Shown in pieces: positions 754 through 7,443 of a stretch of 34,695 nt of DNA. Source of the DNA: Syntrophorhabdales bacterium (GTDB lineage: Bacteria; Desulfobacterota; Syntrophorhabdia; Syntrophorhabdales; WCHB1-27); contig DATKNH010000078.1 of the NCBI GenBank assembly GCA_035541455.1, forward strand, positions 1 through 34,695, read 5' to 3'. How positions within the stretch are numbered: the first letter of the stretch is position 1; each line of letters opens with the position of its first letter. A model generated the notes under the pieces. That model worked only from the letters and a program-made list of their open reading frames with translations. It had not been told where the DNA came from and made no database searches. The position numbers were made by a program, and so were the translations under genes.

Positions 754-832
754 AGTTCTACTCCCTGAAAATAGTTATCGGACGTACGGTAAAAAAGACA
801 AGGCTGTGACCGGTGTGGGATTCTCCCAAATT

Positions 833-848
833 TGGCAAGAAAGTTGCA
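833..848 (+). promoter_or_regulatory. Sigma-54 (-24/-12) promoter
   Basis: TGGCAAGAAAGTTGCA matches the RpoN consensus TGGCAC-N5-TTGCA, with the invariant GG and GC separated by exactly 10 bases. The predicted transcription start is near 859, giving a leader of about 26 nt before the ATG at 885, with AGAAGGAAG as ribosome binding site. It would drive the three overlapping genes 885-3090. No enhancer-binding-protein gene is visible in the window. Confidence 0.7.
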
Positions 849-884
849 GCCCTTCCACTACATTCTTCAGAAGAAGGAAGCTCT

Positions 885-1829
885 ATGCAGACTACACACC
901 CGGATGGCGCCTACAACCGCATAGACGTGCGGGAACATTATCGTCTGCAGCTCGCTGACGGCCAGGGGTGGGAAATTGTTGCCGCACAGGGCGCAGAGCC
1001 CTGGGTGGATAAACTGGCTTCGATCATGCGGCTTCCCTGCGCCGCGTCCGATGGCCATCCAAAGCTGGTCTTCACGCGCAAGAGTCTGGACAGAGACTGG
1101 TGGCGAGACCCGGTATCGAGGCTCGCCCCGGCCGTCGCAAAGAGTCTGCCGGAGAAGGGTTGGATCGCGCATGACCTCACCTCTCTTCACTTCTGGGCCC
1201 ATGATGAGGTACCCGACGTGGTCTGTGAGATGGGAGATGAGCAGGATCATGATCTGGATATCGTAAGGATGTGGCTCGCGCTTGCGCCCATCTACAACCG
1301 GACTCTGGAATTGGGAGGTCTTCCGCTGCATGCGGGACTGGTCGAGAAAAAGGGGAGAGCAGTGCTGTTAGCGGCTCCGGGCGGCACCGGAAAATCGACG
1401 TGCTGCGCCAGGATACCGGCTCCGTGGAGAGCTCTCTGTGACGATTTGACGCTCATGGTGTTGGATGCCACCGGTCAGCACCAGGTTCACCCGTTCCCGA
1501 CGTGGAGCAATTATCTTTGGAAGGTTTCCGAAAACACCTGGGATGTGCACCAGCATTTTCCTCTCTCCGCACTATTCTTTCTGGAACAGGGGGAATCGGA
1601 TCAGGCCACAAGCATCGGGCAGGGAAAAGCTTCTGTTCTTATCACCGAGTCGGCCGAGCAGGTATGCCAGACAGCCTGGAGAAATCTCATCCCCGAGGAG
1701 GAACGATATTTGAAAGAGAGGTTGTTTCAGAACGCGTGTGCCCTTGCCAAGGTTGTTCCCGCGTTCAAGCTCAGCGTTACTCTTCACGGCCGTTTCTGGG
1801 AAGAGATAGATAAGGCCCTCGAGCGATGA
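885..1829 (+). CDS. HPr-kinase-like P-loop protein (ScmC/HprK-related)
   Basis: Protein of 314 residues. ATG 885 was chosen over an upstream in-frame ATG because AGAAGGAAG lies just before it and the sigma-54 promoter lies between the two. The middle resembles the catalytic core of HPr(Ser) kinase: a short lead-in (PLHAGLV) and a Walker A loop GGTGKST at residues 166-172, then an acidic pair DD at 186-187 as in HprK-type nucleotide sites. The N-terminal half has no domain I recognise. Orphan HprK-like proteins are known in cassettes that make or process modified peptides, for example the SynChlorMet protein ScmC, which this resembles in size and layout. Its stop overlaps the next start (ATGA), so translation is coupled to a signal-peptidase-like gene. 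The substrate is unknown; kinase activity is inferred. Confidence 0.7.
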   Translation: MQTTHPDGAYNRIDVREHYRLQLADGQGWEIVAAQGAEPWVDKLASIMRLPCAASDGHPKLVFTRKSLDRDWWRDPVSRLAPAVAKSLPEKGWIAHDLTSLHFWAHDEVPDVVCEMGDEQDHDLDIVRMWLALAPIYNRTLELGGLPLHAGLVEKKGRAVLLAAPGGTGKSTCCARIPAPWRALCDDLTLMVLDATGQHQVHPFPTWSNYLWKVSENTWDVHQHFPLSALFFLEQGESDQATSIGQGKASVLITESAEQVCQTAWRNLIPEEERYLKERLFQNACALAKVVPAFKLSVTLHGRFWEEIDKALER

Positions 1830-2443
1830 AACAGAAATACATCAACTACGTCGGCCCAAGCATGAACCCGCTGTTTGTCGATGGCGACGGCCTGCATGTA
1901 GTTCCGTATGGGGAGTGCACGATCAGAAGGGGTGATGTCATTGTCTTTGTTCCACCAGGAGGGGAGACAAAAGTAGTGCACCGGGTGGTCTCCTGTGATG
2001 ACGAGGGCATCAGGACCAGAGGGGATAATTCCAAGTGCAACGATCCGTGGGTTCTGGCCCCGGATAACATTCTCGGGCAGGTGACGTATATACAGCGAAG
2101 GGACAGGAAGCGGAACATCAGGGGCGGTTTCGCGGGGCGGATCGAGGCGTATTCCTTTCGTTTCATGCATGCCGGCAACAGGGTGGTGTCTGTTGTGCTT
2201 CATCCCTTTTACCGGGGCTTGTGCCGCTCGAAGTTTCTGCGAAGAAGACTGCATCGGATGGTGAAACCGAGAGTCCTCGCATTCAGCCGAGGTGGAAACA
2301 CGGAACTGCAGCTGGTTGTGGGACGCAGGCTCATCGGAAGGAGACGGGCCGGAAAAAAGGATTGGGAAATCAGACGCCCTTTCAAGCTTTGCGTGGACGA
2401 AACGTTATTGCCAAACCTGGAGAAAAGTGAGGTGTATCCATGA
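1826..2443 (+). CDS. S24/S26-family signal-peptidase-like protein
   Basis: Protein of 205 residues with the signal peptidase I/LexA-type Ser-Lys dyad. Ser12 lies in GPSMNP (the SM-x-P box) and Lys49 in ETKVVHRVV; a GDN box follows at 67-69. Unlike LepB it has no N-terminal membrane helix, so it may be soluble or peripheral. After about residue 90 there is a very basic tail rich in Arg with no domain I can name. The gene overlaps both neighbours by 4 bases. Small peptidases of this type accompany HprK-like proteins in peptide-modification cassettes, so it could cut a peptide or the product of such a pathway; no precursor gene was found here. Family call is good, substrate unknown. Confidence 0.7.
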   Translation: MKQKYINYVGPSMNPLFVDGDGLHVVPYGECTIRRGDVIVFVPPGGETKVVHRVVSCDDEGIRTRGDNSKCNDPWVLAPDNILGQVTYIQRRDRKRNIRGGFAGRIEAYSFRFMHAGNRVVSVVLHPFYRGLCRSKFLRRRLHRMVKPRVLAFSRGGNTELQLVVGRRLIGRRRAGKKDWEIRRPFKLCVDETLLPNLEKSEVYP

Positions 2444-3090
2444 AAAAACCAAGATATGTGATTCTGTTACTCATGTTGTTGGGCGCCGGAGGCCTTGCTG
2501 CGTGCCACAAAACACCTGCACCGAAACCGGAAGCCCAGAGAGAGACCATAATTAAGGTGGGGCCTGTCCGCCTGAATCCACACCCCGCGTCCCTTGCGGG
2601 CAAGACTGTGGTGCTTCGGTGGAACGGCCAATGCAACGGCGACACCTTTCTCAATAGTCTGGCCGAGCTTCTCAAGAGCGAAATAAAACAGGTCAAGATC
2701 GTCAAGATGTGGGATGCCGATGCCAGTACGGCTGTGATATCGTCGGGCCTGCGGGAGAGCGAAACCATAGCCGGTGTTGTGGCGTCCCAGAAACCAGCCC
2801 TTGTTATCGCGGCCCAGGCTGACTCGGGGTGAGGCCACTGTATATCGCGGCTGGTAGTTGACCAGCTCAATCTTGAAAAGAGAGGCATCCCCACGGTCAC
2901 CATTGTCACCGCGCCCTTTGAAGACCAGTTCAAGGCTCTGGTAAAGGAACAGGGCATGAAAGAACTGGCGCATGTAGTAGTACCGCACCCGATCGGCGGA
3001 CTAAATTTTCAGGGTGTGCAGCAGAGGGCAACGATGGCTTTTACCGGAGTACTGGAAGCCGCCCGAGAGTGGCAACCGTCCGGAATGTAG
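2440..3090 (+). CDS. UGSC-family selenolipoprotein (in-frame UGA = Sec131)
   Basis: A conventional reading stops at the TGA at 2830-2832 and gives a 130-residue fragment. Read through as selenocysteine, the frame continues to TAG at 3088-3090 for 216 residues. The N-terminus is a lipoprotein signal (LAAC, Cys22). Features typical of the UGSC (seleno)protein family occur on both sides of the TGA: WNGQCNGD then a leucine-rich helix before it, and U-G-H-C (131-134), LEKRGIPTVTIVT and a PHPIGG turn after it. The family normally has U/C-G-S-C; here Ser is replaced by His. U-x-x-C suggests a thiol/selenol redox site, facing the periplasm if the signal works. ATG 2440 follows GAGGTG and overlaps the upstream stop. 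The alternative, a pseudogene with a nonsense mutation, is disfavoured by the intact downstream frame and the SECIS-like hairpin. Confidence 0.8.
2830..2869 (+). promoter_or_regulatory. Bacterial SECIS-like hairpin for Sec insertion
   Basis: Immediately after the in-frame TGA (2830-2832) lies a perfect 6-bp stem GCTGGT/ACCAGC (2850-2855 with 2861-2866) closing the 5-nt loop AGTTG. The loop GT is about 25 nt downstream of the TGA, within the distance usual for bacterial SECIS elements. The TGA itself can pair with TCA at 2867-2869, making a 40-nt hairpin with UGA at its base, much like the E. coli fdhF arrangement. Presumed to bind SelB; folding was done by eye. Confidence 0.65.
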
Positions 3091-5623: not shown

Positions 5624-5800
5624 GATAGCACCTCTCTATAGCTTTTTTGACTCACCACATTATCCGACAATCCGACCCTGAGAAAAGTTCCCGCAACTTG
5701 ACAGAGGAGTGCTTTGTGCTCAGTGTATAGTTGGAATGCTTCCGGGAGAAGGATTGTAGACGGCCGGGCTGCAGGCGCCGGTAATATTCAGGAGGGGATG

Positions 5801-6322
5801 ATGATACCGCAGATTAGAAAGATTCTTTATGCAACCGATCTTACCAAAAACTCTTCGTATGCATTCTATTTTGCCGCGGATATGGCGCGGAAACACGATG
5901 CAAAGATCATTATACTTCATTGTATCGGAGCAATTCCTCCCTCGGTGTATATGGAAGCGGGTTTTACGGACGCTGAGGCGCTCCTGCAGCGGTCAAAAGA
6001 AGCAGAAAAAAAAGAGAACGTGATCGAAATCAAAAGCCGCCTGGAGGAATTCTGCAAGAGGGTGGAATCACAGATCGGCCCGCCGTGTGCGAGCCTCGTC
6101 GCTGACGTTGTCGTTAAGGCCGGTTATCCCGTGGAAGAAATATTGAACACGGCAGACACCCAGGGTTGTGACGTCATCGTGATGGGGACACACGGCAAGG
6201 GGATATTGCGTCAGGCCTTTCTGGGCAGCGTGGCACGGTCGGTGCTGGAGAGAAGCCGAAAGCCTGTTTTTATTATTCCGCTACCTTCTGAAAAGAGCGG
6301 TGGGGAATGGGTGGGGGCTTAA
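5801..6322 (+). CDS. Universal stress protein (UspA family)
   Basis: About 173 residues, one Usp domain. N-terminal strand RKILYATDLTKNS is the usual opening, and the ATP-binding signature G-x2-G-x9-G-S is present in GTHGKGILRQAFLGS near the C-terminus, placing it in the nucleotide-binding subgroup. There are two adjacent ATG codons (5798 and 5801); 5801 is preferred because GGAGG at 5791-5795 is then 5 bases away rather than 2. It stands alone, divergent from an exported protein gene and convergent with the YchF-like gene. Such proteins aid survival under stress or growth arrest; the specific signal is not visible. Confidence 0.9.
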   Translation: MIPQIRKILYATDLTKNSSYAFYFAADMARKHDAKIIILHCIGAIPPSVYMEAGFTDAEALLQRSKEAEKKENVIEIKSRLEEFCKRVESQIGPPCASLVADVVVKAGYPVEEILNTADTQGCDVIVMGTHGKGILRQAFLGSVARSVLERSRKPVFIIPLPSEKSGGEWVGA

Positions 6323-6387
6323 GGCAGAGGGAAGACCGCTTCGCTTAGAAGAGGGGAGATGCCAGGGGACTGCGTGACCGTGGCTGC

Positions 6388-7443
6388 TTAATTACCTGTG
6401 CGGATACAGAGTATGTCGCCGTCTTTGACAGTATAGGCCTTTCCTTCGAGCCGCCACACGCCGGCTTTCTTGCAGCCCGCAAAGCCGCCAAGGCTGATGA
6501 AGTCATTGTAGGCTACTGTTTCGGCGCGGATAAACTTCTGGTAGAAATCGGTGTGAATAGTCCCGGCCGCGTCTTGAGCGGTCATGCCCTTCCTGATGGG
6601 CCACGCGCGGCACTCGTCATCTCCCACAGTGAGAAAGGAGATGAGTCCCATCGTATCGCGGGCGAGACGAATGATCCTGCCGCGGACCGCCTCTTTTATA
6701 CCGTACTCGGCCATGAACTGTACCCGTTCGCCCGGGCTCATGGAAGCGAGCTCTGCTTCGAGCTGCGCGCAGGCGCTAATGACTGCGACGTGCGCGGGAA
6801 CACGCTCCCTGAGGAGGCCCGCTACCGTGCTGTCCTCCGGCGTACCTTCGGCGCAATTGATGGCGATCATCATCGGTTTCCGGGAGAGAAATTGAAAGCC
6901 TCTTAATTTCTTCTCCTCCTCTTCGGCCAGCTGTAGGGTAGACAAAGGTTCTCCGGTTTCAAGGTGCGCCAGGCACTTTTCAAGGAGGGCTTTTTCCTGC
7001 TCCAGCGCTGGCTGAGTCTTGTTCCCGGCCTGCTTCCGGATGCGCTCCAGCCGCAATTCGATCTGGGTCATGTCGGAGAGGATGAACTCGTTGTGGACCG
7101 TCTGGAAATCAGCGACAGGGTCGGCGGGATGCCCGTTCTCAAAGTGACGCACCACGAGAAGGATGGCGTCACTACGGCGCATCTGCTGAAGCGACTTCGC
7201 ATCGAGCGTTTCGTTCTTGATCTCTCCCTCACGAATGGCGACCGTATCCGCGACCTCTATCCGGGAGTAGACCGTTTTTTTTGGGTTGAAGATCTTTGTC
7301 AGAGCGTCGAGCCGCTCGTCGGGCACCTCGATGATCGTCAGCGGCGAACCGTTACCCGTGGTGCTACCGTTACCGCCACTGGCGAGAGCCTTGAAAAGTG
7401 TTGTCTTGCCTGAGCCGGCAGTGCCGACTAATGAAATGTACAT
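6388..7443 (-). CDS. Divergent YchF-like P-loop NTPase with TGS domain
   Basis: Protein of 351 residues from ATG 7443, chosen over an upstream start because AAGGAG precedes it and the P-loop then begins at residue 7 as in YchF. Walker A is GTAGSGKT (7-14). YchF traits kept: VPDERLDALTKIFNPKK (40-56), a DPV-x-D segment near 108, the NxxE base-recognition motif as NCAE (196-199), which favours ATP over GTP in YchF, and a C-terminal TGS domain. It differs in G1 (canonical N-x-GKS) and in lacking the G3 D-x-x-G. So it is a paralog rather than the standard ribosome-associated YchF. It stands alone on the minus strand. Role unknown; family assignment fairly sure. Confidence 0.8.
   Translation of the reverse strand: MYISLVGTAGSGKTTLFKALASGGNGSTTGNGSPLTIIEVPDERLDALTKIFNPKKTVYSRIEVADTVAIREGEIKNETLDAKSLQQMRRSDAILLVVRHFENGHPADPVADFQTVHNEFILSDMTQIELRLERIRKQAGNKTQPALEQEKALLEKCLAHLETGEPLSTLQLAEEEEKKLRGFQFLSRKPMMIAINCAEGTPEDSTVAGLLRERVPAHVAVISACAQLEAELASMSPGERVQFMAEYGIKEAVRGRIIRLARDTMGLISFLTVGDDECRAWPIRKGMTAQDAAGTIHTDFYQKFIRAETVAYNDFISLGGFAGCKKAGVWRLEGKAYTVKDGDILCIRTGN

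Follow-up and report, generated by a model that had tools for sequence, protein, structure and literature searches.

The UGSC selenoproteins, represented by the Pfam entry PF24696 and the NCBIfam entry NF041046, belong to the selenoprotein families that are most abundant in environmental sequence; a thioredoxin-like fold has been suggested for them, and UGSC/Unknown_1 fusions have been described (Zhang and Gladyshev 2008, PMC2398784; fusions in Fig. S1A). No assigned function for UGSC was found in the literature, and the papers searched offered nothing of use on SynChlorMet, on selenoproteins that are lipoproteins or on the partners of MauE/DoxX. GrdB and PrdB, the Sec-containing subunits of the glycine, sarcosine, betaine and D-proline reductases, act together with pyruvoyl-type partner subunits, and we know of no GrdB or PrdB that is secreted. 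The window analyzed here, i.e. the whole stretch of 34,695 nucleotides of contig DATKNH010000078.1 from a Syntrophorhabdales bacterium, contains a gene that resembles the UGSC selenoproteins in its domain, in the place of Sec, in a UxxC motif and in a downstream SECIS-like hairpin, but differs from them in encoding a predicted secreted lipoprotein with U-G-H-C instead of U-G-S-C and two extra residues before Sec. The features of this locus are listed in Table 1.

Table 1. Features of the UGHC selenoprotein locus (positions in the window)
Feature	Position	Strand	Remarks
ScmC (SynChlorMet cassette protein)	813..1829	+	TIGR04249, E 7e-91; overlaps the signal-peptidase-like gene
Signal-peptidase-I-like protein	1826..2443	+	Stop overlaps the selenoprotein ATG (ATGA); same order in G001
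GAGGT Shine-Dalgarno-like site	2429..2433	+	6 nt 5' of the ATG; read from the sequence
UGSC-family selenoprotein gene	2440..3090	+	216 aa, U-G-H-C redox motif, lipoprotein signal
Signal peptide	2440-2502	+	
Lipobox L-A-A-C, residues 19-22	2494..2505	+	Cys22 is the predicted lipidated residue; sequence and homologues
SG insertion (residues 129-130), directly 5' of the Sec codon	2824..2829	+	Alignments; common only to the same-genus orthologue
In-frame TGA, predicted selenocysteine U131	2830..2832	+	Pfam match, orthologue, selection
Cys134 of U-G-H-C, predicted resolving Cys	2839..2841	+	Alignment of 40 UGSC sequences
Bacterial SECIS-like hairpin	2849..2867	+	7-bp stem 2849-2855/2861-2867, loop AGUUG, -10.1 kcal/mol

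As the original prediction, made from the letters alone, had proposed, a single frame runs from the ATG at 2440 through an in-frame TGA at codon 131 to the TAG at 3088-3090, and the standard-code list of open reading frames holds only the 130-residue product that ends at the TGA. The expected homology through this codon was also found, with a PF24696 match that extends over residues 37-206 (E 3.1e-28) and scores 99.5 bits, with the gathering cut-off at 25 bits. Taken alone, the sequence that precedes the TGA gives 28.1 bits, and the bulk of the score therefore stems from the sequence at or after the TGA. The NF041046 model, 'UGSC family (seleno)protein', matched residues 54-207 (E 4e-30) at 104.6 bits, which falls short of its equivalog threshold of 125 bits, as do the scores of the relatives P0003 and L085, and the protein is therefore not filed under this equivalog. 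An initial contig scan with a single protein as query gave no match. The redox motif reads U131-G-H-C134, the literal U-G-S-C being absent, and Cys134 is the sole invariant residue in the alignment of the 40 UGSC sequences. Two details had been overlooked in the original prediction, namely the SG insertion before U and an Arg at residue 137 in place of the Trp of most homologues. The insertion (D-SG-U-G-H-C) is genus-specific; because other members of the clade described below have an insertion-free U-G-H-C, the reverse reading, in which Ser129 occupies the ancestral Sec position, was rejected. The gene is a new variant within a known selenoprotein family, of a branch that is undescribed in the papers searched.

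The orthologue P0002 in the same-genus genome G001 has the same length, TGA at codon 131, U-G-H-C, the SG insertion and the L-A-A-C lipobox, and the two proteins are 71% identical over the 194 residues that follow the signal peptide. When both genes were compared, dN and dS were 0.18 and 1.09 before the TGA and 0.21 and 1.50 after it (dN/dS about 0.14 in the downstream part), the latter values indicating that the part beyond the TGA is selected as a protein. Sequencing error, which had been named as a possible refutation, is no reasonable explanation given the same TGA at the same codon in the orthologue. The formal reading frame does end at the TGA, and a decayed gene or an erroneous base would leave a 130-residue product; nevertheless, this reading conflicts with the identical TGA of the orthologue, with the purifying selection downstream, with the UGSC domain that continues across the codon, with related UGSC genes, most of which carry one in-frame TGA at the same place within the domain, and with the Sec machinery of the genome. 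The orthologue and the downstream selection rule it out in practice, and we regard a real stop as extremely improbable. The genome was found to encode SelA and two SelB proteins above cut-off, one tRNA-Sec above the gathering score, and SelD, whose gene itself has one in-frame TGA, and a natural homologue in locus L103 has Cys at the Sec position (C-G-H-C); the machinery and a Cys homologue had both been named as checks. Taken together, the homology on both sides of the TGA, the Sec or Cys of the homologues and the machinery suggest that UGA 131 is almost certainly read through as selenocysteine.

The two SelB genes (L002 on contig C116 and L003 on C102) are 89% identical over 627 residues, and a strain mixture is possible for them since C102 is a 5-kb contig.

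The SECIS-like hairpin, whose stem starts 16 nt past the UGA codon, agrees with the bSECIS model (PMC13188914), which describes a 4-16 bp stem, a 3-9 nt loop with G in its first two positions, a distance of 16-37 nt from UGA and an MFE <= -7.5: the observed values are 7 bp, a 5-nt loop with G second, 23 nt from the UGA to the loop, and -10.1. A 7-bp stem of this kind is missed by an inverted-repeat search at default length. All seven stem pairs are present in 9/9 secreted-clade genes compared, in which the stem codons CTG, GAC and CAG are invariant while other conserved residues differ in codon, and the hairpin is also formed in L102, L104 and L106. In non-secreted UGSC genes the hairpin mostly lies 5 nt closer to the UGA, and their stems differ with both sides changed (CGUGG/CCACG, CGUAC/GUACG, CUCUGG/CCAGAG). 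The Cys homologue retains 6/7 of the stem pairs. For a depletion of synonymous changes in the stem between the two same-genus genes, a Fisher test gives a p of 0.07 only, and 17% of synonymous recodings of the same peptide also form the stem, so the hairpin alone is not decisive. By this sequence comparison the hairpin speaks for Sec at the codon but is insufficient as sole evidence.

In a quick maximum-likelihood tree of 86 UGSC domains with SH-aLRT supports, the gene groups with its G001 orthologue (support 99) inside an eight-member clade (support 100) that consists of six U-G-H-C proteins, the C-G-H-C protein and one G-D-R-C paralogue, all of them standalone, from Syntrophaceae-type and Chloroflexota genomes. 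The G-D-R-C paralogue (L084 6936-7640), with Gly in place of Sec, adjoins its Sec-containing sister. Across the family the motif also occurs as UGSC, UGAC, UGGC, UGTC, UGIC, UDVC, USTC and USQC, so that its third position is variable and the His is specific to this clade. The original prediction was right about the replacement of Ser by His but not in treating it as a peculiarity of one protein, since it is shared by the six Sec members and the Cys member and is a signature of the UGHC clade. The lipoprotein signal, which was read by eye, likewise holds up, with lipobox-type sites in all U-G-H-C members (LAAC in the gene described here, G001 and L104, LTAC in L102, PAAC in L105 and PVAC in L106), whereas the C-G-H-C member has an ordinary signal peptide. 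The extracytoplasmic placement that had been deduced from this signal stands as well, although it is not special to the protein, because the UGHC clade nests in a larger group of UGSC proteins that have a signal peptide and a Sec-bearing UGSC domain with a C-terminal domain fused to it.

The C-terminal domain of these fused proteins (L085 3725-5497 and similar frames of 580-600 aa) had no Pfam or NCBIfam match. They are probably the UGSC/Unknown_1 fusions of Zhang and Gladyshev (PMC2398784), with which they were matched by architecture only. The protein described here resembles such fusions, its nearest relatives in the tree, in the signal peptides of the secreted ones and in the register of the SECIS hairpin, and differs from them in having no C-terminal domain and in its lipobox and motif His. 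A second UGSC gene of the same genome (L050 on contig C144, 4032-5834) is of the fused type, with a signal peptide and U-D-V-C. After it lies a 5'-nucleotidase-like frame (5768-7120) with an in-frame TGA (CGUSE) and CxxCH motifs, which is probably another secreted selenoprotein (UshA-like). In genome G077 (L031, L040, L044, L079 and others) there are 23 matches to the UGSC family, the majority with a single TGA, and G028 has 10, a marked expansion.

The order ScmC, signal-peptidase-like protein and UGHC protein is the same in the window and in G001, and the three genes form a putative operon. The signal-peptidase-like protein has the serine motif GPSMNP. Apart from ScmC, no protein of the SynChlorMet cassette was recognized on this contig, which starts just upstream. 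Elsewhere in the clade other neighbors recur. A MauE/DoxX membrane protein is encoded downstream in 5/6 loci with readable downstream sequence, with 12 to 73 nt between the UGHC stop and the first MauE ATG; it follows the UGHC gene in G001 (L101), and outside the source genus a secreted rhodanese precedes the UGHC gene, giving the order rhodanese, UGHC or CGHC protein, MauE in L103, L104, L105 (which shares a contig with L084) and L106, and rhodanese followed by UGHC at the end of the locus in L102. A CGCFG motif is kept in MauE (7/7 sequences aligned), and YC-x-C is conserved in the four rhodaneses read in frame. Neither MauE nor rhodanese adjoins the gene in the window, where an acetolactate-synthase-like gene follows on the opposite strand, ending 36 bases on, and a search of its whole genome for MauE gave only one weak match, below cut-off.

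The conserved neighbors of the clade suggest a thiol or persulfide redox relay, and we consider it about an even chance that the UGHC protein serves as a selenol/thiol redox carrier, anchored to the membrane, within a sulfur or thiol relay outside the cytoplasm. UGA 131 would be decoded as Sec by SelB and tRNA-Sec, both recognized by homology, with the help of the hairpin, and the product would be exported through its lipoprotein signal peptide and, according to the lipobox, anchored to the membrane via Cys22. On the extracytoplasmic side, Sec131, located at a helix N-terminus, would form with Cys134 a selenol/thiol pair that cycles via a selenenylsulfide, and electrons or sulfane sulfur may be moved between the secreted rhodanese and the MauE/DoxX-type membrane protein with its CGCFG motif. 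In the source genome, where no MauE adjoins the gene, the partner would be encoded elsewhere or replaced. Adjacency of genes is no proof of partnership. In mycobacteria, the rhodanese SseA and DoxX-family proteins have been mentioned side by side as membrane-associated oxidoreductases (PMC11614215), which offers a lead but does not test the relay.

The fold bears on a second reading, in which the protein is a PDI/Dsb-type disulfide oxidase or isomerase whose U-G-H-C mimics the C-G-H-C of PDI, with a His that makes the leading residue more reactive. In favor of it are the clade motif, which is precisely UGHC/CGHC, the predicted secretion of the protein and the MauE-type membrane partner next door in most members, and extracytoplasmic thiol chemistry is expected as in PDI. 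However, an AlphaFold2 model (pLDDT 89) has an alternating beta-alpha order, with U131 between strand 121-125 and helix 133-147, and its matches among PDB structures, whose TM-scores reach about 0.44, are to generic folds of the Rossmann or flavodoxin-like type; a PDB sequence search gave no match. The beta-alpha-beta-alpha-beta-beta-alpha topology of thioredoxin is not present in the model, and the thioredoxin fold suggested earlier for the family was rejected on this predicted topology in favor of a Rossmann-like one. The protein has no homology to PDI, and with a predicted fold unlike thioredoxin the motif match would be convergent. We therefore find a PDI/Dsb-type enzyme unlikely.

A kinship of a different sort was detected with GrdB, the selenoprotein B of glycine reductase. 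Its model matches 18/40 UGSC members (best E 6.6e-6), other members match GrdF, GrdH and PrdB, and in a profile-profile comparison UGSC and the GrdB Sec domain aligned with a probability of 95.4 and an E of 1.8e-8, with U and C aligned. The comparison gave nothing when the sequences were cut before the Sec codon, and the match appeared once the Sec part was included. The Sec domain shares the pattern UG[TS]CT...E..GIPTV...P.PLG with that of GrdB and PrdB but, apart from being secreted, the UGHC protein lies far under the family cut-offs (TIGR01917 and TIGR04483), and no reductase partner genes were seen nearby. By these profile comparisons, UGSC is a distant relative of the GrdB/PrdB Sec domain, a link that is absent from the papers searched. 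The genome also contains a GrdB-family gene with Sec (L095 on contig C152; UGTSTRCG).

This kinship raises the possibility of a GrdB/PrdB-type Sec enzyme, whose selenolate attacks a carbon of a small substrate in a reductive C-N or C-X cleavage; secreted UGSC proteins would then be substrate-specific reductases, and the standalone lipoprotein a form without the C-terminal domain. The GrdB matches and the aligned U and C are in agreement with such an enzyme, as is a DUF6282/amidohydrolase-type gene between fused UGSC genes in L105 and L106. On the other hand, pyruvoyl-type partner subunits were not seen beside the UGHC genes, and the UGHC form has no fused domain and has rhodanese and MauE as neighbors, so that we consider a reductase of this type doubtful, although less so than a PDI/Dsb-type enzyme.

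Returning to the redox carrier, a wider proposal, which we offer tentatively, is that a new sulfur/thiol module outside the cytoplasm may have the UGHC lipoproteins as its Sec-dependent core, and would be composed of a secreted rhodanese, a lipid-anchored selenol protein with a GrdB-like Sec domain and a MauE/DoxX membrane partner. The clade, the cassette and the GrdB kinship, none of which was part of the original prediction, are the parts worth following. Selenols held outside the cytoplasm are uncommon, and default gene callers cut such genes short. The UGHC clade gives a handle on the UGSC family through its location, its recurring partner genes and a natural UGHC/CGHC Sec/Cys pair in the same cassette, and the kinship with GrdB and PrdB suggests a reaction type for UGSC. 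If the proposed module were true, a GrdB-type selenolate domain would have been moved out of the cytoplasm and linked to the membrane.
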